Below are positions 1 to 35,087 of a stretch of 64,000 nt of DNA, in pieces; the stretch's first letter is position 1; the number at the start of each line of letters is the position of its first letter. A program made the translations under genes and the position numbers. The DNA lies in assembly GCA_035772405.1 (NCBI GenBank), contig JAYKKM010000350.1, positions 2,351,001-2,415,000 on the forward strand, in the 5' to 3' direction. The notes beneath the pieces are model-generated. The model was not told where the DNA came from. It was given only the letters and a program-made list of their open reading frames with translations, and did not search any database. This stretch comes from Chrysogorgia sp. JL179-B06. Taxonomy: Eukaryota > Cnidaria > Anthozoa > Scleralcyonacea > Chrysogorgiidae.

Positions 1-3000
1 TTGATAAAACACGCAATATATCACTACAATATAGTATTGCGCCGTTCTTGATAAAACACGCAATATATCACTACAATATAGTATTGCGCCGTTCTTGATA
101 AAAACACGCAACATATCACTACAATATAGTATTGCGCCGTTCTTGATAAAACACGCAACATATATCACTACAATATAGTATTGCACCGTTCTTGATAAAA
201 CACGCAACATATCACTACAATATAGTATTGCGCCGTTCTTGATAAAACACGCAATATATCACTACAATATAGTATTGCGCCGTTCTTGATAAAACACGCA
301 ACATATCACTACAATATAGTATTGCACCGTTCTTGATAAAACACGCAATATATCACTACAATATAGTATTGCGCCGTTCTTGATAAAACACGCAATATAT
401 CACTAACAATATAGTATTGCGCCGTTCTTGATAAAACACGCAATATATCACTACAATATAGTATTGCGCCACGCAACATATCACTACAATATAGTATTGC
501 ACCGTTCTTGATAAAACACGCAACATATCACTACAATATAGTATTGCGCCGTTCTTGATAAAACACGCAATATATCACTACAATATAGTATTGCACCGTT
601 CTTGATAAAACACGCAATATATCACTACAATATAGTATTGCGCCGTTCTTGATAAAACACGCAATATATCACTATAATATAGTATTAATGCGCCGTTCTT
701 GATAAAACACGCAATATATTATCACTACAATATAGTATTGCGCCGTTCTTGATAAAACACGCAATATATCACTACAATATAGTATTAATTGCGCCGTTCT
801 TGATAAAACACGCAACATATCATTACAATATAGTATTGCGCCGTTCTTGATAAAACACGCAATATATCACTACAATATAGTGTTGCGCCGTTCTTGATAA
901 AACACGCAATATATCACTACAATATAGTATTGCGCCGTTCTTGATAAAACACGCAACATATCACTACAATATAGTATTGCGCCGTTCTTGATACGCAACA
1001 TATCACTACAATATAGTATTGCGCCGTTCTTGATAAAACACGCAACATATCACTACAATATAGTATTGCGCCGTTCTTGATAAAACACGCAACATATCAC
1101 TACAATATAGTATTGCACCGTTCTTGATATAAAACACGCAACATATCACTACAATATAGTATTGCGCCGTTCTTGAAAAAACACGCAACATATCACTACA
1201 ATATAGTATTGCACCGTTCTTGATAAAACACGCAATATATCACTACAAGATAGTATTGCGCCGTTCTTGATAAAACACGCAATATATCACTACAATATAG
1301 TATTGCGCCGTTCTTGATAAAACACGCAACATATATCACTACAATATAGTATTGCGCCGTTCTTGATAAAACACGCAACATATCACTACAATATAGTATT
1401 GCACCGTTCTTGATAAAACACGCAACATATCATTACAATATAGTATTGCACCGTTCTTGATAAAACACGCAACATATCACTACAATATAGTATTGCGCCG
1501 TTCTTGATAAAACACGCAATATATCACTACAATATAGTATTGCACCGTTCTTGATAAAACACGCAATATATCACTATAATATAGTATTGCGCCGTTCTTG
1601 ATAAAACACGCAATATATCACTACAATATAGTATTGCACCGTTCTTGATAAAACACGCAATATATCACTACAATATAGTATTGCACCGTTCTTGATAAAA
1701 CACGCAATATATCACTACAATATAGTATTGCGCCGTTCTTGATAAAACACGCAATATATCACTACAATATAGTATTGCGCCGTTCTTGATAAAACACGCA
1801 ACATATCACTACAATATAGTATTGCACCGTTCTTGATAAAACACGCAACATATTATCACTACAATATAGTATTGCGCCGTTCTTGATAAAAACACGCAAC
1901 ATATCACTACAATATAGTATTGCGCCGTTCTTGATAAAACACGCAACATATATCACTACAATATAGTATTGCACCGTTCTTGATAAAAACACGCAACATA
2001 TCATTACAATATAGTATTGCACCGTTCTTGATAAAACACGCAACATATCACTACAATATAGTATTGCGCCGTTCTTGATAAAACACGCAATATATCACTA
2101 CAATATAGTATTGCGCCGTTCTTGATAAAACACGCAACATATCACTACAATATAGTATTGCACCGTTCTTGATAAAACACGCAATATATCACTACAATAT
2201 AGTATTTGCGCCGTTCTTGATAAAACACGCAATATATCACTACAATATAGTATTGCGCCGTTCTTGATAAAACACGTAATATATCACTACAATATAGTAT
2301 TGCGCCGTTCTTGATAAAACACGCAACATATCACTACAATATAGTATTGCACCGTTCTTGATAAAACACGCAACATATCACTACAATATAGTATTGCGCC
2401 GTTCTTGATAAAACACGCAATATATCACTACAATATAGTATTGCGCCGTTCTTGATAAAACACGCAATATATCACTACAATATAGTATTGCGCCGTTCTT
2501 GATAAAACACGCAATATATCACTACAATATAGTATTGCGCCGTTCTTGATAAAACACGCAACATATCACTACAATATAGTATTGCGCCGTTCTTGATAAA
2601 ACACGCAACATATATCACTACAATATAGTATTGCACCGTTCTTGATAAAACACGCAACATATCACTACAATATAGTATTGCGCCCGTTCTTGATAAAACA
2701 CGCAATATATCACTACAATATAGTATTGCGCCGTTCTTGATAAAACACGCAACATATCACTACAATATAGTATTGCACCGTTCTTGATAAAACACGCAAT
2801 ATATCACTACAATATAGTATTGCGCCGTTCTTGATAAAACACGCAATATATCACTACAATATAGTATTGCGCCGTTCTTGATAAAACACGCAATATATCA
2901 CTACAATATAGTATTGCGCCACGCAACATATCACTACAATATAGTATTGCACCGTTCTTGATAAAACACGCAACATATCACTACAATATAGTATTGCGCC

Positions 3001-3527
3001 GTTCTTGATAAAACACGCAATATATCACTACAATATAGTATTGCACCGTTTCTTGATAAAACACGCAAATATATCACTACAATATAGTATTGCGCCGTTC
3101 TTGATAAAACACGCAATATATCACTATAATATAGTATTAATGCGCCGTTCTTGATAAAACACGCAATATATTATCACTACAATATAGTATTGCGCCGTTC
3201 TTGATAAAACACGCAATATATCACTACAATTATAGTATTAATTGCGCCGTTCTTGATAAAACACGCAACATATCATTACAATATAGTATTGCGCCGTTCT
3301 TGATAAAACACGCAATATATCACTACAATATAGTGTTGCGCCGTTCTTGATAAAACACGCAATATATCACTACAATATAGTATTGCGCCGTTCTTGATAA
3401 AACACGCAATATATCACTACAATATAGTATTGCGCCGTTCTTGATAAAACACGCAAAATATCACTACAATATAGTATTGCGGCCGTTTCTTGATAAAACA
3501 CGCAACATATCACTACAATATAGTATT
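1..3527. repeat. 47-bp satellite array, block A
   Basis: About 75 head-to-tail copies of a 47-bp unit (TTGATAAAACACGCAATATA...). The array runs off the left edge and ends abruptly at 3527. Units vary at a few fixed places: CAATATAT or CAACATAT, and GCGCCG or GCACCG (the latter fits CpG decay). Some units carry one- to four-base insertions, and some are truncated (near 470, 990 and 2920). Each unit contains GCAATA and TATTGC about 16 bases apart, so it could fold into a short hairpin. Minus-strand open frames reading LRVLSRTAQYYIVV are a by-product of the repeat, not genes. Confidence 0.97.
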
Positions 3528-3554
3528 CTTTAAACTTGGGAGTTCAGCGTCCGC

Positions 3555-3768
3555 CGCGGTGTACATACATAAACAGTAGGTGTAATATACTGTGCTCCTT
3601 GCGGGGCTAAATTGCAGAATACCCGTCCACTGTCACTGTTCTTTTGTGTTCGTATATTATGTTGTATGCTTCTTAATCGTACTCAAATAAGCCAGCCAAA
3701 ATACCAATACATTATGTTGTTATGGTTCGTTCTCATAGAGGCTAGGTCATTGCGTATAAACGCGAACG
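3555..3768. repeat. Dispersed direct repeat, short form
   Basis: This stretch (TACATAAACAGTAGGTGT..., through CTTCTTAATCGTACTCAAAT, to GAGGCTAGGTCATTGCGTAT) recurs at 10208-10488. The second copy holds about 80 extra bases after GTAGGTGT, containing a hammerhead-like motif. The rest of the interval to 4050 shows no gene; a 70-aa minus-strand frame there has no recognisable features. Confidence 0.85.
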
Positions 3769-4049
3769 ATTCCTATAAACTATGACAATAACAATGTTAT
3801 TGCCTCGTTCTTTAAAAACCTTATTTGACTTACACACGCGAAATGTTATGTAAAAACCTGTACCCATATATTCATAATCAACTTTATTCACAGTCATTGA
3901 CTGTTGCCTCGTTCTACGGTAAAACCCAGTAAAGCGCAATAATAATACTAACAAGACGCCCGCTAGGCGTTAACTCGGGCTACTTGAGTTAGTGGCTTGT
4001 TGAAAGACATTGTAGGCAAATTCAGCGATTTGAATTCAATATACACAAA

Positions 4050-4245
4050 TCTATATAGACCTTATTCAAAAATGGCTGCCGAATTAGTATTATTTTATAT
4101 ACATATAAATTGGCCCTTATGACCTAGTTTTAAAGTAAGAATCCTTTTCAATTTCGTACATGAAAACGAGTTCATAAGGGTCAATTTATATGCATATAAA
4201 AGAATACTAATTCTGGGGCGATTTTTGAATTTGGTCTAGTTGTAG
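4050..4245. mobile_element. Foldback element (MITE-like), copy A
   Basis: Two inverted arms of roughly 68 bases (about 4055-4125 and 4170-4240) flank a short spacer. The left arm reads TAGACCTTATTCAAAAATGG...AATTAGTATT...CCCTTATGA. The right arm is its near-perfect reverse complement. There is no coding capacity. This architecture is typical of foldback MITEs; no target-site duplication was resolved. Confidence 0.75.
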
Positions 4246-5260
4246 GTACAATGTTACATGTAATGATATTGATACACCTGTCAGCAATAACATAGTGTTG
4301 GCCAACGGCTTTGATTATATGAAGGTGAGTTGGCTCAGTATCCAAGCTCGCTTACTGAGAAGTCTGCCCAACCAAATGAGCCATCCTGTTTGCTGACCTA
4401 ATCCAGTTCTAGCCAACAGGGTCAGCCTGGCAAGCAAGCCGGCCTGTGCTCATGTAATAACAATTCATATGGTCAGTCTGGCAAACAGGTTTAGTTTGAG
4501 CAAGCATTAAATCTCAGTGTATAAGGCATAGCAGTAAATCAAACCATTTAGCTGGCAGTAGCAAGGTGTCATAAGTTATTATAAATGTAATTCAAAATCA
4601 TTATTTCTTTGAAGTTATATAACATTTTGAGCCAGTAAACATATTCATAATTTTAGCATATTTATTATTTGAGAGGCTTTATACATACTAGTGACTAGTC
4701 CAGTGGGCCGGCCAGCTAGCTAATTGTAATATAAATTAGATAGATTACTGCATAGTTAACGTTACTGTCCCGGTTAGCGAGCCAACTCGCTTTCCATGGG
4801 TGTCAGAGAATATATACTGTGTGTTCATTTGTAAGCATTCGCATATAATAATATGAACAATCGATACAAACTTACTGATAACCCAGAACATTTTGGAGCT
4901 CCATTTTAAGCTTACAGGTAAAATATCAAGTGAAACAAGGTTATTCAATGGCAACATTGCATATTATTAGTCATCACTCATCATAGAATAGATGAATTGA
5001 TAACCAGCAAACAATAACAAACTCTTTACTCCTTCATGATCTTGATAGTTGGTATGGGTGTCAGAGATTTATAATAATCGGTACAAACTTACTGATAACA
5101 ACATTGTGGAGCACCATTTAAGCTTACAGGTAAAACATCAAGTGAAACAGGGTAAAATTCGAATATAATTGCTGCCGTAGGCAGCACACTAATCTTGACT
5201 TGGGTTGCTGTGTCTCGTACCCAGTCCTTTTACCGAGCTATGTATAGCTGACCAGATCTC
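4246..5260. other. Intergenic stretch without a recognisable gene
   Basis: AT-rich sequence. It contains a loose internal repetition: GGTGTCAGAGA...TATAATAAT...CAAACTTACTGATAAC near 4798-4915 recurs near 5055-5150. The CTGCCGTAGGCAG hairpin at 5171-5186 recurs in opposite orientation at 55766-55781, so it belongs to a dispersed repeat. No splice-connected reading frame was found. Confidence 0.6.
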
Positions 5261-5459
5261 GATTTGTTAAATTTTGCGTTTGTTTGTTTGTGTGTCGGCA
5301 TACGTCATCCATATGTGCTCGAACGTGACTCAACTGCGCATGTTCCGCCACCACGCTGCCAGCTGTTTGTTTTCTTCTCGAAGTTCTCGACAATTCCTTC
5401 ACAGGAAATTCACGTTGTTTATGTCTTTATTTTGTCTTTACTTTCTCGTGGAAGTATTC

Positions 5460-5769
5460 ATCAAGGCCATGAAGGTTTCAGTGGCCAGTCTCGAGAAAAG
5501 CAGTGCTCTTTCATGAATTTATCAGCGCTGTTAACAGCACAAGCTATTGGGCTTCCAGTTACGAAGTGGAACTCGACAACCATCGACAATATATTTAATA
5601 GTACAAGGAGACAACATGTACTTGAATGCTGTTAACCATGATCTCATTCCTCGTCAGGGATTTCTGTCGTTGAACAACTTACCAACCGTTGTTTGTTGCC
5701 GTTGGTTAGAAGACAACTTGTCCTGTCGAATGTCGATCAGTGATCGACACAAATATATCGCCCGTTGAG
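5460..5769 (+). pseudogene. Decayed fragment of a KQC...GD.MYL...LP domain protein, copy A
   Basis: Two overlapping frames read as one protein fragment once a frame change near 5600 is allowed. The first part contains EKQCSFMNLSALLTAQAIG and KWNSTTIDNI. The second contains VQGDNMYLNAVNHDLIPRQG and LSLNNLPTVV. I recall this pattern (KQC, then a hydrophobic AL-rich helix, W..T.LD.IL, GD.MYL, LP..V) from uncharacterised cysteine-protease-like domains in repetitive cnidarian and Helitron-type proteins, sometimes behind a 2A peptide. That assignment is from memory. The frame change and lack of flanking exons indicate a pseudogene. The upstream ORF from 5264 is probably not coding. Confidence 0.4.
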
Positions 5770-6976
5770 ACACAAAACAATATTGATCTGCCCAACTGTA
5801 TATGTAATAAACTGTACATGGAACTGTCTTCAAGAAATTATTTACCTCAACTTTGTGAAAATTCAGTGGATTTGTCCATTTTGTGAAAATTCAGTGCACA
5901 ATGGGAATTATTTGTGTGTCATGGATAACCATAATATTTGGTATGCAATAAATACAATATTACAAGTTCTTTGGGAAAATAAAATACAGTGGTTGCAGTT
6001 GACTGTGGTGTATTCCGAAACGACAATTACAGTATAATATGGAGTCGTGGTCATGTGCAATGAACTAATACATCACAAAGATCTTGAAAGTATCGCATTC
6101 TCAACAATAAAATTAATAGACGATATAAATAATGGTGCAACAATATTGTAAACATCTGTTACATACCATTGTTCGCTTGCTTTGTCATAACATATCACAC
6201 ACTTGCGATTCCACTGACAGCTTTGCCACAGTAAGAAGCATGATTTATAGTGGCAGTGATTTATCAGAAATTTGTTTACCAATCACCAACTACATACTGT
6301 AGTCATAATGTATACTGTCTATCCAGTCAAAAGCCTTGCAAATTATATTCAGATAAGTGATAATCATTTGTAATTTAAGTCTGCTGTATTTAAAATATTT
6401 AAAATAATTGATAGAAATGTGTACATAACTACAGTGGATTCATTTTTGAAATTTTATTAAAAATTAGGCTTCCCATGACTTTCGAGGCAGCACTTCCCCT
6501 TGCGATAGTAACTTCTAGTATATGAAACAATAAACTGTAGCATCGATTTTATTTTGTATAACATAACAATAAACAATACAGGCAACAAAGCATCAAGGGC
6601 TCCGCTCGAAACGTCAGTATCTCGTCACTAAATCCTTGCCAGTTTACCACCTTTTCACTTTGCTATATAAAAATATTACTGTTACCTCAGAACAGTTGAC
6701 ATTTTCCATACAGCATTCATATGTTGAGTCTGATATTTCTCGAAATCGTAGACCAACCCATTTCGAAAGCGATCGGGATTGTGAGCGTATATAAGATCAA
6801 GATACTTGCCAGCCACATCAAAGATTTTCAGTGAAGAGCACTCAAAGAAAGGAGATCAGATACTGTTTTGGCGCATGAATATATGGTGTTTTCAGTTTCG
6901 CATAGGTGAAAAGCCTGGGTACGAGGTTGATCGGGATGATGCAATAATTAGCCTTAGAAACGACTGCGGGGGGCAC
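5770..6976. other. Non-coding stretch with repeat fragments
   Basis: No supported gene. At 6593-6670 lies GGGCTCCGCTCGAAACGTCA followed by a tail ending TTTTCACTTTGCTATATA. This is the same dispersed repeat as 51362-51445, but its hammerhead-like 5' half is degraded (GCATCAAGGG instead of CTGATGAAGGG). At 6910-6928 CCTGGGTACGAGGTTG matches the end of the 9-bp-TSD MITE family of 54-58 kb. At 6930-6948 TCGGGATGATGCAATAATT matches the inner end of the 58.2-61.1 kb element. These are fragments of elements into which the TTAA transposon may have inserted. Confidence 0.6.
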
Positions 6977-7122
6977 TTAAAGAATGTGTGTCAACCGGCA
7001 TGCATTGCGCGCTTTTGTTATTATTATGATTCCAGGAGTGATACTTCATTTTATATTCGCGTATTGACCAGAATACAATCGCAACACGCAACTGATTTCA
7101 AAACCTTTAAAATCAGCTTAAA

Positions 7123-8327
7123 ATGTCTGATTCCGACTCTGATCTGGCTGTGTCTCTCTACGATCCGGAAGACAATCTTAATTTTTACGGTTCTCCGGTT
7201 GAAAGAGACAATATATCGGAGCCTGAGCTTGAAGAGACTGCGTATACTGCCAATGCTGTCGCTAGGTAAGTTCGAATTTTCAGTAATTTGTTGACATATA
7301 TTATGCCTTTATATCCGTACCTATCTCAATATCTATTTGTTGTGTTTATTTCGCAGTTTTGCAGCTGTAAGAACACGTGCAGCAGACGTAGTGGAAGAAA
7401 GAAGCGTGGCTGTCCGTGCCGTGATGAAAATTTGCATTGTTGCGACAAATGTTCGTGTGGGACAAAGAATTCTTGTTGTAAAAACAAGGAACAATGTGCT
7501 GTCGGTAGTACGAATGCAGATGCTGGAAAGAATGCTTTTGAACCCCATCAAGCAGCAATCCAGGATGCCAAACTTGAAATTACGGTAAGTTTACCGTGCA
7601 ACGCATTCTGTATTATCGTATATAAATATACAAGAAAACTTTTCACATTGTGCGTCCTAATAAATAATTCATTGTTTTTTTCCATTCTTCGACTCAGTTC
7701 AATATGGCTGTCACGAAATTTGGCATTTCGTATATACACATAACCAGTCTATCAATGCATTAGACACATTTGAAACGGTGTTTTTATATATGCATATATT
7801 TTAATAGGCTGTTCTGGTTTACATGTTTATAATCAATTTATTTATTTTATTATAGGACTTTGTTGAAGGATTGACTGCTGATCAAAAAGACAACATTCTG
7901 CTGAATTTGTTATCCAATGGCAAAGGCAGTTTGGATTGTCAAGTTCGGCCCTGGTGGAGTTCCACCTGTCCCGGATGGAAAACCTAGCTGGTGTGTGTGT
8001 GGTGTCTGTCGGGTAATGCCTACAGAAGAGGAGAATAAATGTTGTCGCAAGATCCGATGTGTTACATCATTTGTAACCTTTCAGAACACATGTACTGACA
8101 GGGATGTCTTGATCATTTGCATTAGAGCAAGATGTGACATAAGAGTAGAAGATCCTGACTATTCCACAAACAGTTACCGCAAAGCTGCTTACCGTCAGTA
8201 TATCCTTTGGAGGTACAAGAAATTGGGAAGGGGCAATCGAAGGGTGTGCCCATCATGTGTAGTATTGGCAATCAGACATATTTTCCCAGCTGATGATGGA
8301 AACTATATGGGTTTCAAGAGAGCTTGA
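7123..8327 (+). CDS. P2X7 ballast-domain-like zinc protein, three exons, with an apparent frameshift (copy A)
   Basis: Exons 7123-7265, 7365-7584 and 7856-8327 have GT-AG introns. Exon 1 gives an acidic start (MSDSDSDLAVSLYDPEDN). Exon 2 is Cys/Lys-rich (CSRRSGRKKRGCPCRDENLH, then CCDKCSCG and CCKNKEQ). Exon 3 opens DFVEGLTADQKDNILLNLL and later carries WCVCGVCRVMPTEEENKCC, YRKAAYRQYILWRYKKLGRG and RVCPSC. This is the signature of the cytoplasmic zinc-binding ballast domain of P2X7 receptors. No channel transmembrane helices are present, so it is not a receptor. The exon 3 opening and the ballast frame differ by one base near 7946-7956. One extra C in CGGCCCTGG would explain it, so the gene may be inactive. 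Start choice: first ATG, 142 bp inside the transposon end. Confidence 0.75.
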
Positions 8328-8935
8328 CATTATTTTGTAATTATTTCATACATGATTTACTGTAATCTCTGTAATAAGCCCCCTCTCTCAAATATTCACC
8401 TTGTTTTAGATGAAGAAATGTGAAAGTGCCCCTAGTCCCCACCCCCATACTACCCATTCATACAAAAGCACAAGTGTTTTCATAAGGTCTTATGGTTTTC
8501 ATTGCACATTGTACTGTGCTTGAAACAAAGTGTCTGAGCAAATAAGCCACCAGGGGCTTATCAGAAAGATTACAGTATCAGTTTTTAATAGTCGTCTACA
8601 ATTCATTATTGCATATTGTATTTGTTGATTACTAAAATCATGACACAAATCATTTGTTTGGAAAATGCTTTGTATAAGTCAGGAAAATATGGCACATTGC
8701 CAGATAATGGATAAATATGTACAAACGTCAGACACAGATTATTATCTTACAGCTACTATGTTCTTCATGCACAATGAGCATACAAACATAATTCCTCATA
8801 TCTCAGAATATAGCATATATTATAATGCTATATGGCATGGAAAATTAGGCATTATCCATAAATGACTGGGGATAATATTATATCCTTTTTGTGCATTCAA
8901 ATCACGAGTAATGACCATACATATTATTAATACAA
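8328..8935. other. Spacer between the convergent genes of the TTAA element
   Basis: The 3' flank of the P2X7-like gene. AT-rich with TTATTTTGTAATTATTTCATAC after the stop. No clear AATAAA hexamer near the stop codon was noticed. The 66-aa frame at 8665-8865 has no recognisable features and is probably chance. Confidence 0.5.
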
Positions 8936-8939
8936 TAAG

Positions 8940-9135
8940 GATTGTGAATATATCCCGTCAACTGGCGAGTTCCACTGACGAGTAAAATTGTCTGGCATTA
9001 GACAGTAAAATAGTCTGGCGTTAGACAGAGTAAAATACAGTAGGCACATTCGGGCCCGTTGCCAGTAATGGGTAAACAAAAGACACCGGCAGATAGTTCT
9101 GTTTAACCCATTAACTGGCAGTACTTTTCCACTGA
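8940..9135. repeat. Short degenerate internal repeats (GAGTAAAAT / CTGGCATTAGACAG)
   Basis: AACTGGCGAGTTCCACTGACGAGTAAAAT is echoed at 9113-9150 as AACTGGCAGTACTTTTCCACTGATGAGTAAAAT. In between, GTCTGGCATTAGACAG is repeated twice. The segment sits in the transposon interior between the two genes, and the same text is in copy B (31415-31595). Confidence 0.6.
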
Positions 9136-9563
9136 TGAGTAAAATATTATTTGTTTCAATGCATGCACAAAGAGGAACTAAAATCCAGTCTTTTATGAAA
9201 ATTGTTATACAAAGACATTTGTCTGATTAAAATTTGAGTAGTGAAAAAAGTACTCAGTATTATTAATAGCATGAAAACACTGAGCAATAATTATGACAAG
9301 AGTCTTTTATAAATCAGTCCAAACAGTTTGTTTTTATGTTGGCTTTGCAAATCGGGAAAGGGACTGCTTAACAACATCCGCAGTAGCTGGTACTGGCTTC
9401 ATACCAATTGATTTGGATATTCTGTTTGGATGATTTTCAAGGCAAATTCATCTTCTTTCAAGATGCTGTCCTTGTCATCAACCTTTCTTTGCAGGACTCC
9501 AGATGAACTCACCATGGGTACTTTGAGGAGACTGGAGAGGGCAGTTGATTTTCCCCTCTCATT

Positions 9564-9740
9564 CTAGTCATCAAGAATTTCCAGTAGGTGACTAGCAAAT
9601 TCATTGTGGCTTTTCTCAGCCATTCCAACCAGATCTTTTTGCACCAGCCATTGATTATAAACGTCCATTCGCAGGCCAATTCGGTGTACTTCAATGCCTA
9701 GTTTTGGCCTGCCGCGCTTTGGCAACGAAGACGACGCCAT
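9564..9740 (-). CDS. 58-aa basic protein with KRGRPK motif, TTAA-element ORF (copy A)
   Basis: ATG at 9740, TAG at 9564-9566, 58 residues. It begins MASSSLPKRGRPKLGIEVHR, continues IGLRMDVYNQWLVQKDLVGM and ends ...HLLEILDD. KRGRPK resembles an AT-hook core (GRP flanked by basic residues), suggesting minor-groove DNA binding; this is inference. The following LRMDV..W...K segment looks like a short helical domain. The TTAA MITE at 52.9 kb encodes a decayed homologue (LRVDVFGLW) at the same distance, about 220 bp, from its terminus. Conservation across two diverged elements argues that the ORF was functional. The frame stays open after TAG (NERGKSTALSSLLKVPM...), so the stop could be a premature one. 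It converges on the P2X7-like gene. Confidence 0.6.
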   Translation of the reverse strand: MASSSLPKRGRPKLGIEVHRIGLRMDVYNQWLVQKDLVGMAEKSHNEFASHLLEILDD

Positions 9741-9963
9741 ATATGTAAATTATATTGTGTTTTCTCTCGAAATATAACACGCTCTAATTCAAAGTATTAT
9801 TATACTTGGTGGAATATTATAAAATATACGATTTGCAGCAAGGATTGACAATATATTGAACGGATTGCTTCGATATGCAATATCACAGCAATTTCTCTGC
9901 CAAGAAAATGGCCGCCGAGTTCATTAAGCGCGCAATGCATGCCGGTTGACACACATTCTTTAA

Positions 9964-10200
9964 TTTTGCGCATGTGTAGTAATCCCACATTCATAGTCGC
10001 GCTCACTAGTCTACAAATTTAGTCAAAAATGATGCAATAATTGCCATTTCGCGACATTGACAAAAGAAAAATAATAAACCGAGCCCTTTTTAAGACTCGT
10101 GCTCCCCCCACAGGGGGAGGCCCGAGTAACTAGGAGTAATCAAAGATTATGTAAGTGCGTTCTACGCATGAGCAAATGGTGAATGAAGATTTGTTTACAA
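9964..10200. repeat. Remnant of the TTACTCGGG-ended element family
   Basis: ATGATGCAATAATTGCCATTT, GCGAC, AAAAATAATA, CCGAGCC and GGCCCGAGTAA at 10027-10130 follow, in order, the right terminal repeat of the 58244-61078 element. The GGGGGAG/CTCCCCC segment near 10100-10125 forms a hairpin, as the corresponding place in that family does. With the matching fragment left of 6976, the TTAA transposon may be nested in an older element. Confidence 0.45.
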
Positions 10201-10207
10201 ACATCAC

Positions 10208-10488
10208 GGTGTACAATAAACAGTAGGTGTGGATTCTCGTCAGCCTCAAAGAGATAAGGAAACTTCTCGACGTTTCAAGCCAAGACCCTTCGTCAGGAGA
10301 GTTCGTGTTTCAATATACTGTGCTCCTTGCGCGCCTAAATTGCAGAATACCCGTCCACTGTCACTGTTCTTTTGTGTTCGTATATTATGTAGTTTGCTTC
10401 TTAATCGTACTCAAATAAGCCAGCCCAAAATACCAATACATTATGTTGTTATGGTTCGTTCTCATAGAGGCTAGGTCATTGCGTATTT
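10208..10488. repeat. Dispersed direct repeat, long form with ribozyme-like insert
   Basis: Matches 3555-3768 on both sides of about 80 extra bases (10231-10311) lying between GTAGGTGT and AATATACTG. The insert holds the hammerhead-like motif. Small frames across it (63-117 aa) have no recognisable content. Confidence 0.8.
10257..10306 (-). ncRNA. Hammerhead-ribozyme-like motif (copy A)
   Basis: On the minus strand: GAACTCTC, then CTGACGA, then AGGGTCTTGGCTT, then GAAACGTC, then GAGAAGTTTC. CTGANGA...GAAA are the invariant hammerhead core boxes. ACGT after GAA could form the two-base-pair stem III known from Penelope-like retroelement hammerheads, and GTC is a permitted cleavage triplet. Stem I pairs TCTC with GAGA and, after an A bulge, GAAC with GTTT. 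Stem II is weak (G-T pairs) with an extra A after CTGACGA. The motif at 51354 keeps the core but changes stem I in a compensatory way. Activity is inferred only. Confidence 0.5.
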
Positions 10489-10489
10489 T

Positions 10490-11950
10490 CAAAATCTTCT
10501 CAGTAAAGAAATCGGCCAAATCAGTTGCCACGTTTACTTTGGTTTCGAGGATGGCAGTTTCTGTTCAGCCTTCCGATGCATGACCTTATCATATTTGAAA
10601 AGAGCCCCTCGTATTTGAAAAGAGCCCCTACACCCTTCTCGTGTAACTAATCCCTAGGTGATACATATGTCACCATCATTACGTTGCTTGAAAAATATCA
10701 AAGCCGCAACTTGCCAGTTATTTTTATTCACTGTTGACCCTCCCAAGAGCGAAGACGAACACAATTAAGATAGCTGAAAATACTGACGAACGCAACATTG
10801 AGGCGGTCTGCAGCAATGCTATGATGTGGATATTGATTGGTCTTTGGTACCAACAAAGTTGCACAATGTGAGTATTTCCTGGACCCAGGTTCTTTTTAAT
10901 TTACATCCATTTATAGCTTCATAATAGCTGTTATTGGAAAAAGATGGGATGAGCTTTTAAGTTATTTATGGCGCCAAAACACAGCTGTGCAATACTATTT
11001 TCTTAATAGGTTTGTGAAATATGGGCCAAGACCCGTTAGGGTTAGAAAACTCGTTAGGCGGGGGGTTAGGGTTAGGATAAAAGTTGTTTCGGGTTAGCCA
11101 ATATTTTGACAATTAAGGATAATCGTGAATCTCATGTGAGAGACTATGTTGGCCAACTGCCAAGAACATGAAGCAAAAAAAACCACGGTTTTGATTGGCA
11201 TTATATCGTTGGTGGCTTATTACAATGGGACATGCGTTCCCTCACAGTTAAAGAAGCCTGGAATGAACCAGTTGTAATTTAGGTGAGCACATGAATCAGA
11301 ATAAACGTCATAAAATTACATTTGTGTTGCGTTAATTTTTGTTTGCGTTTCTCTTATATTGTTTTGGGAAAACATTCTAACAAAACTATTTAATGTATTT
11401 TTATATCAGCAATGTTTAACACCGTGTTAACGTTCTGCATATTGGAACTAGCGAGTATCGTCGCGTCGGTCAATCCTGTCCTAGTTTAACTGCCTTCACT
11501 GACTTACCGGTAACTCTCTATACAAAAACGTAATAATTAATACACTTCGCTTTTACGCCATTTTACACCACATCGTCAATATTTATAACGCGCAATAAAC
11601 AATGAAATGAAACTACACTGTGTAAATCGGTTTTAATCATTCACATATATATTATGCACCATATTATATACCATGTACTCTTCTCTACTCTCTAGTCAGT
11701 CACTCATGTGCAAAAAACTCTTGCTCACTGCACATTATATATTTGAGAATTGAGGGGATTAACTGAAATCGCGTTGGCGGTGGTCGCGCCATTTCACAAC
11801 GTGGCGTCGCTTTACTGTTCAAGAGTATTCGTGTAAAACGCGTAAAAGTAAATCTTATTTGCGTTGCCTAAACGTTTTTTTTAAAAAATGAAGTTCGCGG
11901 ACGATCTTTAGTAGGACCCGCTGTAACTCATGTGTATTGACCAATTTAGC
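10490..11950. other. Intergenic stretch without a recognisable gene
   Basis: Contains a short tandem duplication (ATTTGAAAAGAGCCCCT twice near 10592-10630) and the telomere-like patch described separately. No supported open reading frame. Confidence 0.6.
11031..11087. repeat. Interstitial TTAGGG-like patch (copy A)
   Basis: GTTAGGGTTAG, a broken segment, then GGGGGGTTAGGGTTAGGA. TTAGGG is the metazoan telomere unit. Two short degenerate runs in the interior of a contig indicate an interstitial remnant, not a chromosome end. Confidence 0.7.
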
Positions 11951-12520
11951 AAAAAATGGCACCGTGAATCTCACCGGGAAAATGACACCGGTAAAAATGG
12001 CACTAAATAAAACAAACTAAATAATTAAAAAGACTATATAATGTTAAAATAGAAATCTGGTTCCTTCCAACACCTCTCAAAAAACTCTCTAACGACCTTC
12101 CAATCATAAAGTTTCAATCATATGAAACTTTCATCGTATTTATGAGCTTTCTAGAAAATCATTATCATAGCAACCTAGTATTTCATTGGTTGTTTTAAAA
12201 GCATCAGTGCAACGTATCAGTGCAACATAATTGTATCAACATAATTGTATCATTCAAAGCATCAGTGCAATCAAGTATATTGGAATTTGCTAAAATTAAT
12301 GGCAATAACTTATTGAGATGCTAATTCTATAGAAATTCACAATTGAAAGGTATGCATAACTCATTTAATGGTATGTTTTTCGCCGAAAATGTGTAGCGAA
12401 AATTACAGTTTGAGTTTCATGGGTAGTGCCATTTTTTCCGTGTCACTCATTATTCCAGTGCCATTTTTACGGTTGCCATTTCTTCCGGTGACATTTTTAC
12501 CGGTGTCATTCCGCTCACCG
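11950..12520. repeat. Inverted clusters of GGTAAAAATGGCACC-type motifs
   Basis: AAATGGCACCGTGAATCTCACCGGGAAAATGACACCGG at the left end is mirrored on the right (12425-12520) by TAGTGCCATTTTTTCCGTGTCAC and several further CGGT(T/G)(A/C)CATTT motifs. The arrangement resembles a TIR element with subterminal repeats. No TSD was resolved and the interior does not code. Confidence 0.5.
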
Positions 12521-12639
12521 TTTATCACACTGTGTTACCAGGCACAGTGTGGTAGAGTTTGAGTAAACTGTCGTCGGTCGTGGTCGATAAATATTATTTT
12601 TTAACGTTAATGTAACGCAACGTAGTGTAATATAACACT

Positions 12640-13570
12640 ACAGCTGTGCCTCAAACGTATATGAAATGGCTTGAAAATACGTCCACTTTCCATTATCTAA
12701 TAAACTGTGCCGACGATATAAACATTTAATACGCTGCATCCAGGCATACTTTGTTTGTAGGATAAACTCACCGTGTAATATTAACTGGTGTAACCATCAT
12801 ATAAATGAATGTTTTAAACGGTAAAAAAATACCTTGGCCAAGGTTATTATCTATGTTTTATGTTGTTTGCATTTTTTTCATGCGGTGAAATTTTTTCTGA
12901 TTTTCCCATACACTTTTCAAAAATAACAATTTCGTTTAAATAATTAAGTAAAACAGTTAAAAGACTCCAAGTTATCAACTGCGACTTTTTTATTACGACC
13001 TACTCATTCCATTGAGTTCTAGTAGTGTATTTGCCTGAGATAAACTAGAGTCCAGACCAAAACCAACCAATGCTCGCCGCTACAAATTTAGTTTGACTCT
13101 AGCTTTGACGTTTAAAACCAAGGTCCAAAGTCGAAGTTTTACTATTCAACACCATAACTCCATAAGTTTGACGTTTCGACCATACATTACTATAAAGGCG
13201 TCACCCCTACTGCCGCTACACTTCCTAATTATAAGCTCTGCCTCAAGCGTATATGAAATGACTTGAAAATACGTCCCCTTTCCATAATTCCATGATCTAA
13301 TAAACTGTGCCGACGATCCAGGCATACGTTGTTTCTAGGATTAATTTAAAACCCCTTACCGTGTAATATTAACTGCTGTAACCATCATATAAATGAATGT
13401 TTTAAATTCAATCCCGAAACATGTCATTTTGCCGCATGGAATACCTTGGCCAAGGTTTATTAGCGCACGCTGAGAGCCTTGCAAAAATATGTCATCAGTA
13501 TCGGCGGCATCAAAAAGCGCATGGTTATTATTATATCTATGTTTTATGTTGTTTTGATTTTTCTGATGCC
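12640..13570. repeat. Two direct copies of a ~220-315-bp sequence
   Basis: GTGCCTCAAACGTATATGAAATG through CCTTGGCCAAGGTTATTA (12646-12860) recurs, diverged and with insertions, at 13230-13545 (CTGCCTCAAGCGTATATGAAATG ... CCTTGGCCAAGGTTTATTAG). The copies share AAACTGTGCCGACGAT and ATATAAATGAATGTTTTAAA. The 64-aa frame at 13421 lies in the second copy and is probably not a gene. Confidence 0.7.
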
Positions 13571-13629
13571 TACCATTCTCCGCCTTTATTTACCAAATTT
13601 ATAATTTATTTTTAAACTTGGCATCCGCC

Positions 13630-14215
13630 AGCCAACTCAGTGACCGACATGTTAATTCGCTTCCATATCATTTTCTTCTCGGTAGATGAGCAATCTGAAC
13701 TCACCATTCGATTCCTCATACAATTCTGCGTACAATAACATGCAATTCGCCCTTTCAATTTTCAAACTACTATTTATTTGAAATTTTTCAACTTCCGTTA
13801 TGTAGCGCGCGCTTGTTGACTCAGTGACAGACATGTTAATTCGCTTCCATATCAGTTTCTGCTCAGTAGATGAGCAATCTGAGCACACCATTCGATTCCT
13901 CATATAATTCTGCGTACAATAACATGCACTTCGCCCTTTCAATTTTCAAACTACTATTTATTTGAAATTTTTCAACTTCCGTTATGTAGCGCGCGCTTCT
14001 TGACCCAGTGACAGACGGAGTGTTAATTCGCTTCCATATCATTTTCTGCTCGGTAGATGAGCAATTTAATTCGCTTCCATATCATTTTCTGCTCGGTAGA
14101 TGAGCAATCTGAACACACCATTCGATTCCTTATACAATTATGCGTGCAATAACATGCAATTCGCCCGTTCAATTTTCAAACTACTATTTATTTGAAATTT
14201 TTCAAATTATTCCAA
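13630..14215. repeat. ~184-bp tandem repeat, three to four copies (copy A)
   Basis: GTTAATTCGCTTCCATATCA starts units at 13651, 13835 and 14022, with a partial extra copy at 14068. Each unit runs through TAGATGAGCAATCTGA, ATTCGATTCCT, AATAACATGCA and GAAATTTTTCAACTTCCGTTATGTAGCGCGCGCTT. Confidence 0.9.
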
Positions 14216-14245
14216 TACTCGAAATTTTCCTTCACCATAAATCCT

Positions 14246-14352
<107 letters not shown>

Positions 14353-14419
14353 ATACCCAGAATCTTATCCCGGCATTACCACCATATATACAGAACTCGT
14401 GACTAGGCTCTCGGCAACG

Positions 14420-16950: not shown

Positions 16951-18123
16951 AATGGACAATGGATTGTTCATTGAACCCACTGGACAGAAAATATCCAGTC
17001 GCAAATACATTGTCCATTGGATCCATCTGACAATTATATGTCCATTGGACAACGCGCAGTGTCCATTGGACAACGCAGTATCCATTGGATCCAATGGATC
17101 CATTGGACCAATCGATCTGGCTAACACAGACACTATTATCCACATGGGGTCAATCATACAAAATATGTTGACCGCAAACCTCCACATGAGGTCCATTGGA
17201 CAAGTAAATGCCCATTGGACAACGCATCGTCCATTGGATCCAATGGACAATTAAATGTCCATTGGACAACGCAGTGTCCATTGGATCCAATGGACAATTA
17301 AATGTCCATTTGGACAATGCAGTGTCCATTGGATCCAATGGATCCATTGGACAAATGGATTTTGGCTACCCCAACACCACCATCCACATGAGGTCCAACG
17401 GACAAGCAGTTGTCCAGTGGAACACAGCATTGTCCATTGGATCCTTTGGACAAGTAAATGTCCATTGGACAACGCGTCGTCCATTGGATCCAATGGACAA
17501 TTAAATGTCCATTGGACAACGCAGTGTCCATTGGATCCAATGGATCCATTGGACAAATGGATTTTGGCTACCCTAACACCACCATCCACATGAGGTCCAA
17601 CGGACAAGCAGTTGTCCAGTGGAACACAGCATTGTCCATTGGATCCATTGGACAAGTAAATATCCATTGGACAACGCAGTGTCCATTGGATCCAATGGAC
17701 AATTCAAGTCCAGTGGACAACGCAGTGTCCATTGGATCCAATGGATCCATTGGACAAATGGATTTTGGCTACCCCAACACCACCATCCACATGAGGTCCA
17801 ACGGACAAGCAGTTGTCCAGTGGAACACAGCATTGTCCATTGGATCCATTGGACAATTCAATGTCCAGTGGACAACGCAGTGTCCATTGGATCCAATGGA
17901 TCCATTGGACAAATGGATTTTGGCTACCCCAACACCACCATCCACATGAGGTCCAACGGACAAGCAGTTGTCCAGTGGAACACAGCATTGTCCATTGGAT
18001 CCATTGGACAATTCAATGTCCAGTGGACAACGCAGTGTCCATTGGATCCAATGGACAATTCGATGTCCAGTGGAATGTTCATTTTGTCCATTGGACATTG
18101 TGTTTGGGTATTGGACATAAATC
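16951..18123. repeat. CCATTGG satellite (satellite 2), copy A
   Basis: Built from TCCATTGGA and its complement. The core TCCATTGGATCCAATGGA is a perfect 18-bp palindrome with a central BamHI site. A larger unit of about 155-204 bases includes AAATGGATTTTGGCTACCCC, CACCATCCACATGAGGTCCA and AGCAGTTGTCCAGTGGAACA. Starts of successive GATTTTGG blocks lie at about 17356, 17560, 17759 and 17914. Long open frames on both strands come from low stop-codon content in the unit. The array joins the 47-bp satellite directly at 18123/18124. Confidence 0.95.
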
Positions 18124-21100
18124 TACAATATAGTATTAATTGCGCCGTTCTTGATAAAACACGCAACATATCATTACAATATAGTATTGCGCCGTTCTTG
18201 ATAAAACACGCAATATATCACTACAATATAGTGTTGCGCCGTTCTTGATAAAACACGCAATATATCACTACAATATAGTATTGCGCCGTTCTTGATAAAA
18301 CACGCAACATATCACTACAATATAGTATTGCGCCGTTCTTGATACGCAACATATCACTACAATATAGTATTGCGCCGTTCTTGATAAAACACGCAACATA
18401 TCACTACAATATTGTATTGCGCCGTTCTTGATAAAACACGCAACATATCACTACAATATAGTATTGCACCGTTCTTGATAAAACACGCAACATATCACTA
18501 CAATATAGTATTGCGCCGTTCTTGAAAAAACACGCAACATATCACTACAATATAGTATTGCACCGTTCTTGATAAAACACGCAATATATCACTACAAGAT
18601 AGTATTGCGCCGTTCTTGATAAAACACGCAATATATCACTACAATATAGTATTGCGCCGTTCTTGATAAAACACGCAACATATATCACTACAATATAGTA
18701 TTGCGCCGTTCTTGATAAAACACGCAACATATCACTACAATATAGTATTGCACCGTTCTTGATAAAACACGCAACATATCATTACAATATAGTATTGCAC
18801 CGTTCTTGATAAAACACGCAACATATCACTACAATATAGTATTGCGCCGTTCTTGATAAAACACGCAATATATCACTACAATATAGTATTGCACCGTTCT
18901 TGATAAAACACGCAATATATCACTATAATATAGTATTGCGCCGTTCTTGATAAAACACGCAATATATCACTACAATATAGTATTGCACCGTTCTTGATAA
19001 AACACGCAATATATCACTACAATATAGTATTGCACCGTTCTTGATAAAACAACGCAATATATCACTACAATATAGTATTGCACCGTTCTTGATAAAACAC
19101 GCAATATATCACTACAATATAGTATTGCGCCGTTCTTGATAAAACACGCAACATATCACTACAATATAGTATTGCACCGTTCTTGATAAAACACGCAACA
19201 TATTATCACTACAATATAGTATTGCGCCGTTCTTGATAAAACACGCAACATATCACTACAATATAGTATTGCGCCGTTCTTGATAAAACACGCAACATAT
19301 ATCACTACAATATAGTATTGCACCGTTCTTGATAAAACACGCAACATATCATTACAATATAGTATTGCACCGTTCTTGATAAAACACGCAACATATCACT
19401 ACAATATAGTATTGCGCCGTTCTTGATAAAACACGCAATATATCACTACAATATAGTATTGCGCCGTTCTTGATAAAACACGCAACATATCACTACAATA
19501 TAGTATTGCACCGTTCTTGATAAAACACGCAATATATCACTACAATATAGTATTGCGCCGTTCTTGATAAAACACGCAATATATCACTACAATATAGTAT
19601 TAATTGCGCCGTTCTTGATAAAACACGCAACATATCATTACAATATAGTATTGCGCCGTTCTTGATAAAACACGCAATATATCACTACAATATAGTGTTG
19701 CGCCGTTCTTGATAAAACACGCAATATATCACTACAATATAGTATTGCGCCGTTCTTGATAAAACACGCAACATATCACTACAATATAGTATTGCGCCGT
19801 TCTTGATACGCAACATATCACTACAATATAGTATTGCGCCGTTCTTGATAAAACACGCAACATATCACTACAATATAGTATTGCGCCGTTCTTGATAAAA
19901 CACGCAACATATCACTACAATATAGTATTGCACCGTTCTTGATAAAACACGCAACATATCACTACAATATAGTATTGCGCCGTTCTTGAAAAAACACGCA
20001 ACATATCACTACAATATAGTATTGCACCGTTCTTGATAAAACACGCAATATATCACTACAAGATAGTATTGCGCCGTTCTTGATAAAACACGCAATATAT
20101 CACTACAATATAGTATTGCGCCGTTCTTGATAAAACACGCAACATATATCACTACAATATAGTATTGCGCCGTTCTTGATAAAACACGCAACATATCACT
20201 ACAATATAGTATTGCACCGTTCTTGATAAAACACGCAACATATCATTACAATATAGTATTGCACCGTTCTTGATAAAACACGCAACATATCACTACAATA
20301 TAGTATTGCGCCGTTCTTGATAAAACACGCAATATATCACTACAATATAGTATTGCACCGTTCTTGATAAAACACGCAATATATCACTATAATATAGTAT
20401 TGCGCCGTTCTTGATAAAACACGCAATATATCACTACAATATAGTATTGCACCGTTCTTGATAAAACACGCAATATATCACTACAATATAGTATTGCACC
20501 GTTCTTGATAAAACACGCAATATATCACTACAATATAGTATTGCGCCGTTCTTGATAAAACACGCAATATATCACTACAATATAGTATTGCGCCGTTCTT
20601 GATAAAACACGCAACATATCACTACAATATAGTATTGCACCGTTCTTGATAAAACACGCAACATATTATCACTACAATATAGTATTGCGCCGTTCTTGAT
20701 AAAACACGCAACATATCACTACAATATAGTATTGCGCCGTTCTTGATAAAACACGCAACATATATCACTACAATATAGTATTGCACCGTTCTTGATAAAA
20801 CACGCAACATATCATTACAATATAGTATTGCACCGTTCTTGATAAAACACGCAACATATCACTACAATATAGTATTGCGCCGTTCTTGATAAAACACGCA
20901 ATATATCACTACAATATAGTATTGCGCCGTTCTTGATAAAACACGCAACATATCACTACAATATAGTATTGCACCGTTCTTGATAAAACACGCAATATAT
21001 CACTACAATATAGTATTGCGCCGTTCTTGATAAAACACGCAATATATCACTACAATATAGTATTGCGCCGTTCTTGATAAAACACGTAATATATCACTAC

Positions 21101-24100
21101 AATATAGTATTGCGCCGTTCTTGATAAAACACGCAACATATCACTACAATATAGTATTGCACCGTTCTTGATAAAACACGCAACATATCACTACAATATA
21201 GTATTGCGCCGTTCTTGATAAAACACGCAATATATCACTACATGATAGTATTGCGCCGTTCTTGATAAAACACGCAATATATCACTACAATATAGTATTG
21301 CGCCGTTCTTGATAAAACACGCAACATATATCACTACAATATAGTATTGCGCCGTTCTTGATAAAACACGCAACATATCACTACAATATAGTATTGCACC
21401 GTTCTTGATAAAACACGCAACATATCATTACAATATAGTATTGCACCGTTCTTGATAAAACACGCAACATATCACTACAATATAGTATTGCGCCGTTCTT
21501 GATAAAACACGCAATATATCACTACAATATAGTATTGCACCGTTCTTGATAAAACACGCAATATATCACTATAATATAGTATTGCGCCGTTCTTGATAAA
21601 ACACGCAATATATCACTACAATATAGTATTGCACCGTTCTTGATAAAACACGCAATATATCACTACAATATAGTATTGCACCGTTCTTGATAAAACACGC
21701 AATTTATCGCTACAATATAGTATTGCGCCGTTCTTGATAAAACACGCAATATATCACTACAATATAGTATTGCGCCGTTCTTGATAAAACACGCAACATA
21801 TCACTACAATATAGTATTGCACCGTTCTTGATAAAACACGCAACATATTATCACTACAATATAGTATTGCGCCGTTCTTGATAAAACACGCAACATATCA
21901 CTACAATATAGTATTGCGCCGTTCTTGATAAAAACACGCAACATATATCACTACAATATAGTATTGCACCGTTCTTGATAAAACACGCAACATATCATTA
22001 CAATATAGTATTGCACCGTTCTTGATAAAACACGCAACATATCACTACAATATAGTATTGCGCCGTTCTTGATAAAACACGCAATATATCACTACAATAT
22101 AGTATTGCGCCGTTCTTGATAAAACACGCAACATATCACTACAATATAGTATTGCACCGTTCTTGATAAAACACGCAATATATCACTACAATATAGTATT
22201 GCGCCGTTCTTGATAAAACACGCAATATATCACTACAATATAGTATTGCGCCGTTCTTGATAAAACACGTAATATATCACTACAATATAGTATTGCGCCG
22301 TTCTTGATAAAACACGCAACATATCACTACAATATAGTATTGCACCGTTCTTGATAAAACACGCAACATATCACTACAATATAGTATTGCGCCGTTCTTG
22401 ATAAAACACGCAATATATCACTACAATATAGTATTGCGCCGTTCTTGATAAAACACGCAATATATCACTACAATATAGTATTGCGCCGTTCTTGATAAAA
22501 CACGCAATATATCACTACAATATAGTATTGCGCCGTTCTTGATAAAACACGCAACATATCACTACAATATAGTATTGCGCCGTTCTTGATAAAACACGCA
22601 ACATATATCACTACAATATAGTATTGCACCGTTCTTGATAAAACACGCAACATATCACTACAATATAGTATTGCGCCGTTCTTGATAAAACACGCAATAT
22701 ATCACTACAATATAGTATTGCGCCGTTCTTGATAAAACACGCAACATATCACTACAATATAGTATTGCACCGTTCTTGATAAAACACGCAATATATCACT
22801 ACAATATAGTATTGCGCCGTTCTTGATAAAACACGCAATATATCACTACAATATAGTATTGCGCCGTTCTTGATAAAACACGCAATATATCACTACAATA
22901 TAGTATTGCGCCACGCAACATATCACTACAATATAGTATTGCACCGTTCTTGATAAAACACGCAACATATCACTACAATATAGTATTGCGCCGTTCTTGA
23001 TAAAACACGCAATATATCACTACAATATAGTATTGCACCGTTCTTGATAAAACACGCAATATATCACTACAATATAGTATTGCGCCGTTCTTGATAAAAC
23101 ACGCAATATATCACTATAATATAGTATTAATGCGCCGTTCTTGATAAAACACGCAATATATTATCACTACAATATAGTATTGCGCCGTTCTTGATAAAAC
23201 ACGCAATATATCACTACAATATAGTATTAATTGCGCCGTTCTTGATAAAACACGCAACATATCATTACAATATAGTATTGCGCCGTTCTTGATAAAACAC
23301 GCAATATATCACTACAATATAGTGTTGCGCCGTTCTTGATAAAACACGCAATATATCACTACAATATAGTATTGCGCCGTTCTTGATAAAACACGCAACA
23401 TATCACTACAATATAGTATTGCGCCGTTCTTGATACGCAACATATCACTACAATATAGTATTGCGCCGTTCTTGATAAAACACGCAACATATCACTACAA
23501 TATAGTATTGCGCCGTTCTTGATAAAACACGCAACATATCACTACAATATAGTATTGCACCGTTCTTGATAAAACACGCAACATATCACTACAATATAGT
23601 ATTGCGCCGTTCTTGAAAAAAACACGCAACATATCACTACAATATAGTATTGCACCGTTCTTGATAAAACACGCAATATATCACTACAAGATAGTATTGC
23701 GCCGTTCTTGATAAAACACGCAATATATCACTACAATATAGTATTGCGCCGTTCTTGATAAAACACGCAACATATATCACTACAATATAGTATTGCGCCG
23801 TTCTTGATAAAACACGCAACATATCACTACAATATAGTATTGCACCGTTCTTGATAAAACACGCAACATATCATTACAATATAGTATTGCACCGTTCTTG
23901 ATAAAACACGCAACATATCACTACAATATAGTATTGCGCCGTTCTTGATAAAACACGCAATATATCACTACAATATAGTATTGCACCGTTCTTGATAAAA
24001 ACACGCAATATATCACTATAATATAGTATTGCGCCGTTCTTGATAAAACACGCAATATATCACTACAATATAGTATTGCACCGTTCTTGATAAAACACGC

Positions 24101-25970
24101 AATATATCACTACAATATAGTATTGCACCGTTCTTGATAAAACACGCAATATATCACTACAATATAGTATTGCGCCGTTCTTGATAAAACACGCAATATA
24201 TCACTACAATATAGTATTGCGCCGTTCTTGATAAAACACGCAACATATCACTACAATATAGTATTGCACCGTTTCTTGATAAAACACGCAACATATTATC
24301 ACTACAATATAGTATTGCGCCGTTCTTGATAAAACACGCAACATATCACTACAATATAGTATTGCGCCGTTCTTGATAAAACACGCAACATATATCACTA
24401 CAATATAGTATTGCACCGTTCTTGATAAAACACGCAACATATCATTACAATATAGTATTGCACCGTTCTTGATAAAACACGCAACATATCACTACAATAT
24501 AGTATTGCGCCGTTCTTGATAAAACACGCAATATATCACTACAATATAGTATTGCGCCGTTCTTGATAAAACACGCAACATATCACTACAATATAGTATT
24601 GCACCGTTCTTGATAAAACACGCAATATATCACTACAATATAGTATTGCGCCGTTCTTGATAAAACACGCAATATATCACTACAATATAGTATTGCGCCG
24701 TTCTTGATAAAACACGTAATATATCACTACAATATAGTATTGCGCCCGTTCTTGATTAAAACACGCAACATATCACTACAATATAGTATTGCACCGTTCT
24801 TGATAAAACACGCAACATATCACTTACAATATAGTATTGCGCCGTTCTTGATAAAACACGCAATATATCACTACAATATAGTATTGCGCCCGTTCTTGAT
24901 AAAACACGCAATATATCACTACAATATAGTATTGCGCCGTTCTTGATAAAACACGCAATATATCACTACAATATAGTATTGCGCCGTTCTTGATAAAACA
25001 CGCAACATATCACTACAATATAGTATTGCGCCGTTCTTGATAAAACACGCAACATATATCACTACAATATAGTATTGCACCGTTCTTGATAAAACACGCA
25101 ACATATCACTACAATATAGTATTGCGCCGTTCTTGATAAAACACGCAATATATCACTACAATATAGTATTGCGCCGTTCTTGATAAAACACGCAAACATA
25201 TCACTACAATATAGTATTGCACCGTTCTTGATAAAACAACGCAATATATCACTACAATATAGTATTGCGCCGTTCTTGATAAAACACGCAATATATCACT
25301 ACAATATAGTATTGCGCCGTTCTTGATAAAACACGCAATATATCACTACAATATAGTATTGCGCCACGCAACATATCTCTACAATATAGTATTGCACCGT
25401 TCTTGATAAAACACGCAACATATCACTACAATATAGTATTGCGCCGTTCTTGATAAAACACGCAATATATCACTACAATATAGTATTGCACCGTTCTTGA
25501 TAAAACACGCAATATATCACTACAATATAGTATTGCGCCGTTCTTGATAAAACACGCAATATATCACTATAATATAGTATTAATGCGCCGTTCTTGATAA
25601 AACACGCAATATATTATCACTACAATATAGTATTGCGCCGTTCTTGATAAAACACGCCAATATATCACTACAATATAGTATTAATTGCGCCGTTCTTGAT
25701 AAAACACGCAACATATCATTACAATATAGTATTGCGCCGTTCTTGATAAAACACGCAATATATCACTACAATATAGTGTTGCGCCGTTCTTGATAAAACA
25801 CGCAAATATATCACTACAATATAGTATTGCGCCGTTCTTGATAAAACCACGCAATATATCACTACAATATAGTATTGCGCCGTTCTTGATAAAACACGCA
25901 ATATATCACTACAATATAGTATTGCGCCGTTCTTGATAAAACACGCAACATATCACTACAATATAGTATT
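18124..25970. repeat. 47-bp satellite array, block B, with higher-order periods
   Basis: About 167 units. Variant units mark higher-order repeats. The short unit GATACGCAAC occurs at 18341, 19805 and 23432. The variant CTACAAGATAG occurs at about 18594, 20059 and 23687. The variant CACGTAATAT occurs at about 21085, 22268 and 24715. Spacings of about 1463, 1183 and 2447 bases recur, near 31, 25 and 52 units. The last 3.5 kb (from about 22445) is the duplicate of the array at 1-3527. Confidence 0.96.
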
Positions 25971-26499
25971 CTTTAAACTTGGGAGTTCAGCGTCCGCCGC
26001 GGTGTACATACATAAACAGTAGGTGTAATATACTGTGCTCCTTGCGGGGCTAAATTGGCAGAATACCCGTCCACTGTCACTGTTCTTTTGTGTTCGTATA
26101 TTATGTTGTATGCTTCTTAATCGTACTCAAATAAGCCAGCCAAAATACCAATACATTATGTTGTTATGGTTCGTTCTCATAGAGGCTAGGTCATTGCGTA
26201 TAAAACGCGAACGATTCCTATAAACTATGACAATAACAATGTTATTGCCTCGTTCTTTAAAAACCTTATTTGACTTACACACGCGAAATGTTATGTAAAA
26301 ACCTGTACCCATATATTCATAATCAACTTTATTCACAGTCATTGACTGTTGCCTCGTTTCTACGGTAAAACCCAGTAAAGCGCAATAATAATACTAACAA
26401 GACGCCCGCTAGGCGTTAACTCGGGCTACTTGAGTTAGTGGCTTGTTGAAAGACATTGTAGGCAAATTCAGCGATGTTGAATTCAATATACACAAATCT

Positions 26500-26690
26500 A
26501 TATAGACCTTATTCAAAAAATGGCTGCCGAATTAGTATTATTTTATATACATATAAATTGGCCCTTATGACCTAGTTTTAAAGTAAGAATCCTTTTCAAT
26601 TTCGTTACATGAAAACGAGTTCATAAGGGTCAATTTATATGCATATAAAAGAATACTAATTCTGGGGCGATTTTTGAATTTGGTCTAGTT
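26500..26690. mobile_element. Foldback element (MITE-like), copy B
   Basis: Duplicate of the element at 4050-4245, with one extra A in the left arm and one extra T in the loop. Confidence 0.75.
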
Positions 26691-27910: not shown

Positions 27911-27911
27911 C

Positions 27912-29432: not shown

Positions 29433-29578
29433 TTAAAGAATGTGTGTCAACCGGCATGCATTGCGCGCTTTTGTTATTATTATGATTCCAGGAGTGATAC
29501 TTCATTTTATATTCGCGTATTGACCAGAATACAATCGCAACACGCAACTGATTTCAAAACCTTTAAAATCAGCTTAAA

Positions 29579-34390: not shown

Positions 34391-34394
34391 CAAT

Positions 34395-34965: not shown

Positions 34966-35087
34966 CCGTTTATCACACTGTGTTACCAGGCACAGTGTGG
35001 TAGAGTTTGAGTAACTGTCGTCGGTCGTGGTCGATAAATATTATTTTTAACGTTAATGTAACGCAAACGTAGTGTAATATAACACTA

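Follow-up and report, generated by a model that had tools for sequence, protein, structure and literature searches.

How a transposon that carries a P2X7 ballast-type gene, apparently without any known transposase, can be mobile is the question raised by a locus in Chrysogorgia sp. JL179-B06. The element occupies positions 6977–9963 of the analysed 64,000-nucleotide stretch of contig JAYKKM010000350.1 (the window). It consists of TTAA, a 34-bp inverted end, a 2.9 kb interior, the same end inverted, and TTAA. The arms 6977–7014 and 9926–9963 are 38 nt long and 100% complementary. Each comprises TTAA and the 34-bp terminal inverted repeat (TIR), which bears out the initial annotation of a TTAA-flanked element with perfect ends. 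Arm comparison placed the left TTAA target-site duplication at 6977–6980 and the left TIR at 6981–7014 (plus strand); the right TIR (9926–9959, minus strand) precedes the right duplication (9960–9963). The termini read AGAATG...CATTCT, hence 5'-AG...CT-3', and belong to the RR/YY type. The element is almost certainly a Kolobok-0 (Kol0) DNA transposon that lost its interior by deletion and is non-autonomous. Kolobok transposons generate TTAA duplications and have RR/YY ends, and Kol0 elements encode a transposase plus KolX, a protein resembling the P2X7 ballast and proposed as source of the P2X7 tail (Kojima and Bao, 2022; PMC9587614). The ballast gene at this locus is assigned to such an ordinary Kol0-type transposon, not to a new mobilisation system.

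KolX is located on the plus strand. Exon 1 is a relic (7123–7263) lacking its 3' part in comparison to the long copies of the family; 141 of 177 nt align. Exon 2 (7357–7582) encodes a nine-cysteine N-terminal module. Exon 3 (7856–8327), also a relic, encodes the P2X7-type ballast domain (PF20478) and has lost its frame via deletions of 14 and 6 nt. The breakage of this gene was read from the splice sites and from a comparison with intact copies. The proposed ballast-type domain was recovered with the Pfam model at E=1.6e-23 and confirmed on the spliced protein. On the minus strand, what remains of the end of the last transposase exon lies at 9334–9502 (borders set by eye) and a relic of transposase exon 1, with an in-frame stop, at 9513–9740. 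The deletion junction falls between them at 9503–9505. The 'small basic ORF' of the initial annotation starts in this exon, and the minus-strand frame meets its stop after 58 codons. The annotated convergence of the two coding stretches holds, but neither of them is an intact gene.

The element belongs to a family. The 18-nt end occurs in 23 exact copies in the 780-Mb genome, a number which refers solely to exact ends and leaves copies with diverged ends uncounted; a reversed-pattern control gave 0. Four of these ends are located in the window, and the remaining 19 places were all retrieved. A scan of the window itself with up to 3 mismatches yielded 5 matches versus 0.04 expected, two from this element, two from its duplicate and one from a related mini-element. 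Paired ends are spaced by 2.97–2.99 kb in the window element, C149 and C336, by 6.4 kb in C309, by 8.2–8.4 kb in C442, C107 and C54, and by 13.1 kb in C23. TTAA was present on both sides in all eight of these independent insertions with two exact ends, so that the genome check proposed in the initial annotation revealed a multi-copy mobile element. Four further copies, C9 (L018), C106 (L020) and two in C271 (L017 and L024), have the flank of the exact end in common and lack the first 12 bases of the other end. The truncated end adjoins identical foreign sequence in the three of the four that were compared, and so these copies represent a ninth insertion multiplied by segmental duplication. C65 (L025, L026) is a tenth insertion, a short copy that is interrupted behind element position 127 by some 6.8 kb of other sequence and breaks off short of the right terminus.

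The target site was examined on the C442 insertion (L009, positions 706–8926). It sits within a repeat family (L021–L023) of at least 40 near-identical copies, and its flank translation, inspected by eye, is presumably reverse transcriptase-like. The flanks joined with a single TTAA matched at least 40 places end to end at 99%, with 40 of 1191 candidates scored. The join was exact in all three aligned places out of the 40. These empty sites confirm the TTAA duplication for the C442 insertion. A target site of TA, TTA or TAA was ruled out by the same sites.

C442, C107 and C54 are long copies of 8.2–8.4 kb with the ends of the window element. They encode KolX in three exons (298 aa) and, convergent on the opposite strand, a Kolobok-type DDE transposase in ten exons. 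In C442 the ten transposase exons are open and in phase throughout, giving 783 aa. C309 is a long element with a further 1.8-kb deletion; C23 includes a 2.5-kb stretch of N and about 1 kb of additional sequence. Full-length TTAA-flanked copies with both genes, which the initial annotation had suggested looking for, thus exist, with an intact KolX and a transposase gene and with empty sites for C442. The transposase gene is shifted by one base in exon 8 of C107 and bears an insertion in exon 1 of C54; in C442 the donor of exon 2 is non-canonical in appearance. Therefore, activity is claimed for no individual long copy; judged from the genes, none is clearly functional.

At least 36 relatives of the C442 transposase were found at E ≤1e-3 among the 7999 best word-sharing candidates scored (best E=4.9e-210). 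Their sources include corals, jellyfish, an acorn worm, bivalves, echinoderms and fishes. The best matches for both transposase and KolX came from the octocoral Paramuricea clavata, with 78% and 76% identity, respectively, in keeping with an octocoral genome. An alignment with 21 of the 36 relatives revealed invariant or nearly invariant blocks GDGR-DS, TDA, DIWH and HH..H..C.H. The last E, in LE.F and variants, was present in all 18 of those 21 that reach its region (counted by eye). The C442 protein has DIWH, HH..H..C.H and LENF; the window copy has lost the corresponding part by deletion. HH..H..C.H is read here as the zinc finger described for Kolobok. No Pfam transposase model matched the assembled C442 transposase itself. 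The Mutator-like transposase model (PF20700) matched 13 of the 21 relatives at E ≤0.01 (best 3.2e-9), and one such match inspected in a relative scored just below the curated cut-off.

The window element has the TTAA duplication and the RR...YY termini of Kolobok, and its KolX companion with a ballast domain is the mark of Kolobok-0. The C/DxxH motif and the zinc finger before the last E are found in the full-length C442 and are located in the region absent from the window copy. Membership in Kolobok is argued from relatives and motifs. Compared with Kol0 elements such as Kolobok-1_XT, the same TTAA duplication, RR/YY ends, D/CxxH DDE transposase and KolX ballast were found (PMC9587614). Unlike the Kol0 elements described there, the window copy is devoid of nearly all of the transposase and its KolX is broken, while its full-length relatives fit the description. 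The initial annotation had regarded full-length relatives with an ordinary Kolobok or piggyBac transposase and without the two genes as refuting its reading. Such a transposase is indeed present, but the ballast gene is kept in these relatives, because KolX and transposase together form the published Kol0 gene pair.

A piggyBac origin has next to no probability. PiggyBac elements also insert at TTAA, and a few of their families are described as encoding a protein that resembles the C-terminus of KolX but is without most of the seven cysteines (PMC9587614). The KolX studied here retains its cysteines, however, and the ends 5'-AG...CT-3' are of the Kolobok RR/YY type. DIWH and zinc-like motifs are present in the full-length transposase, whose relatives match the Mutator-like model. 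The piggyBac Pfam model matched neither the query protein nor the 21 relatives.

The relation of the Kol0 short form to the long form is evident from the deletion joint. Positions 1–2529 of the window element correspond to 1–2614 of C442, and positions 2527–2987 to 7763–8221, with an overlap of 3 bp. Relative to the full-length form, about 5.15 kb are gone, which is nearly all of the transposase. In the 'small basic ORF' this deletion has fused transposase exon 1 to the tail of the last exon; its annotation as a gene of its own is abandoned, since two ends of the transposase gene have been joined. The joint of the window element is identical in C336 and C149. In C9, C106, both C271 copies and C65 it is nearly alike (2581 and 7764 of C442), and the two joint forms presumably go back to one deletion event. 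The short lineage comprises five insertions at TTAA sites, namely the window element, C336, C149, the C9 group and C65. Identical or near-identical joints occur in independent insertions; therefore, the short form probably had a single origin and spread subsequently.

The following course of events would account for these copies. A full-length parent of 8.2–8.4 kb would have carried KolX and the DDE transposase convergently between TTAA-flanked 34-bp inverted ends. The deletion, seen directly in the alignment, would then have left a derivative with both ends. A transposase from full-length copies could excise such a derivative and reinsert it at a new TTAA, and KolX would be dispensable in cis. 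Because ends and joint are shared, the short copies are most likely mobilised in trans by the full-length transposase. The window copy itself lacks an intact transposase due to the internal deletion and the stop. The suggestion of a new mobilisation system without a known transposase is superseded by the full-length relatives in the same genome, which encode a Kolobok-type transposase. The second suggestion of the initial annotation, a non-autonomous passenger of Kolobok-type transposases, was right, the window element being an internal-deletion derivative of such long copies. A new transposon type, in which KolX, alone or together with the small basic protein, forms the mobilising machinery of an autonomous short element, is extremely improbable. 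The short element holds only these two coding stretches and yet spread to several sites, as that explanation would predict. In the window, however, neither stretch is unbroken, and the KolX frame is lost in all nine short loci. Besides, the small ORF is a fragment of a transposase, and full-length copies that share these ends encode one of the DDE type. The locus is an example of a degenerate derivative mimicking a transposon without transposase.

The condition of KolX differs between long and short copies. The gene is open in all four long copies translated (C442, C107, C54 and C309), and the indels in C23 are all in-frame according to an indel count. It is frame-broken in nine of nine short loci, i.e. 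both window copies, C149, C336, C271a, C271b, C9, C106 and C65. Breakage in the short loci was scored by indel count, with spliced-exon translation for the first window copy only. Substitutions against C442 were compared between KolX exons and non-coding positions. The exons diverge faster than non-coding sequence in the window element (18/842 versus 16/1535) and C336 (18/842 versus 17/1536), and slightly slower in C149 (18/865 versus 41/1529), C271a (15/857 versus 40/1511) and C106 (14/857 versus 41/1511). Third codon positions are the most changed in the window element and C336; C149, C271a and C106 have no such excess. Taken alone, the lower exon divergence in the latter three copies could hint at past constraint. 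Selection on KolX in the derivatives was considered and left no clear sign, with frames broken in nine of nine loci, mixed exon divergence and small counts.

It is highly unlikely that KolX was retained as selected cargo which helps the derivative in cis, instead of by accident of deletion placement. The presence of the KolX region in nine of nine short loci would agree with such a role, as would the slightly less diverged exons of C149, C271a and C106. The same or nearly the same joints, however, make KolX retention probably one event. The broken frames in all nine loci and the exons of the window element and C336, more diverged than their non-coding sequence, contradict cargo selection as well. 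KolX in the Kol0 derivative has lost its frame and appears to be a decayed passenger, which would have no role there.

The ballast domain connects KolX to the P2X7 receptor. The exon-3 frame of an intact copy (L012) matched solved P2X7 chains at E down to 4.8e-12, and the seven cysteines were aligned with those of the receptor ballast (PDB 6u9v, 9e3q). In P2X7 the ballast is fused to an ion channel, whereas in KolX, a protein encoded by a transposon, it comes after the nine-cysteine N-terminal module. With its long copies, a common deletion derivative and empty sites, the family provides a clear case for the published KolX origin of the P2X7 tail.

The N-terminal module of KolX has the pattern CxCKNTC...GCPC...C...CxCG...C. 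An alignment of the query with 12 sequences chosen among at least 108 matches showed seven of its nine cysteines to be invariant and the other two almost invariant, and all nine are kept in seven of seven chosen stretches. We take the module to be similar to CXC-type DNA-binding domains. A comparison with solved structures gave no match up to E=10, and the search against Pfam yielded one unrelated weak match in one of seven members (E=0.11). An AlphaFold model of the KolX relative P0042, computed from a 12-sequence alignment, reached a mean pLDDT of 55.6 and a pTM of 0.28, too poor for searching. By analogy, KolX may be a two-domain zinc protein whose N-terminal module binds transposon ends, so that the ballast would stem from a transposition cofactor; this view is tentative and rather doubtful. 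If true, the P2X7 ballast would have descended from a cofactor linking transposase and DNA.

The nanor and ZCD proteins are likewise stand-alone animal proteins with a ballast domain (Rump et al., 2020; PMC7016195). The ballast domain is taken there as a host gene family, in a main text that does not contain the stem 'transpos'. The Aiptasia ballast gene given in that work is AIPGENE13307 (PMC7016195). The transposase search matched AIPGENE13315 in Aiptasia; linked KolX and transposase genes in Exaiptasia would fit. The 'ancestral synteny' of ballast genes presented in the same article (PMC7016195) may, as a conjecture, partly reflect linked transposon genes. The Exaiptasia sequences P0008 (transposase) and P0042 (KolX relative) are each listed with a contig of 301168 bases.

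The window contains a second copy of the same insertion at 29433–32417 (plus strand). Its flanks are common with those of 6977–9963, and it lies inside a 14.4-kb block 99.4% identical to 1–14355. This copy is not independent and was rejected as evidence of transposition, since it is part of a segmental duplication. The two 14.4-kb blocks extend over 1–14355 and 22445–36807, and the transposon was copied along with them; they reflect either a segmental duplication of recent date or a duplication in the assembly.

A 465-bp mini-element flanked by TTAA is located at 52891–53355. Its ends are related but diverged, with 39-nt arms that are 85% complementary. An open stretch in it resembles transposase exon 1 (by eye). 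Judged from these features, it is a MITE-like derivative from a related Kolobok family. Long tandem satellite arrays with self-match offset steps of about 47 bp occupy 1–3527 and 18115–25970. Repeated blocks of another family, which match one another many times in the self-comparison, are found at 17041–18123 and 38763–41973.
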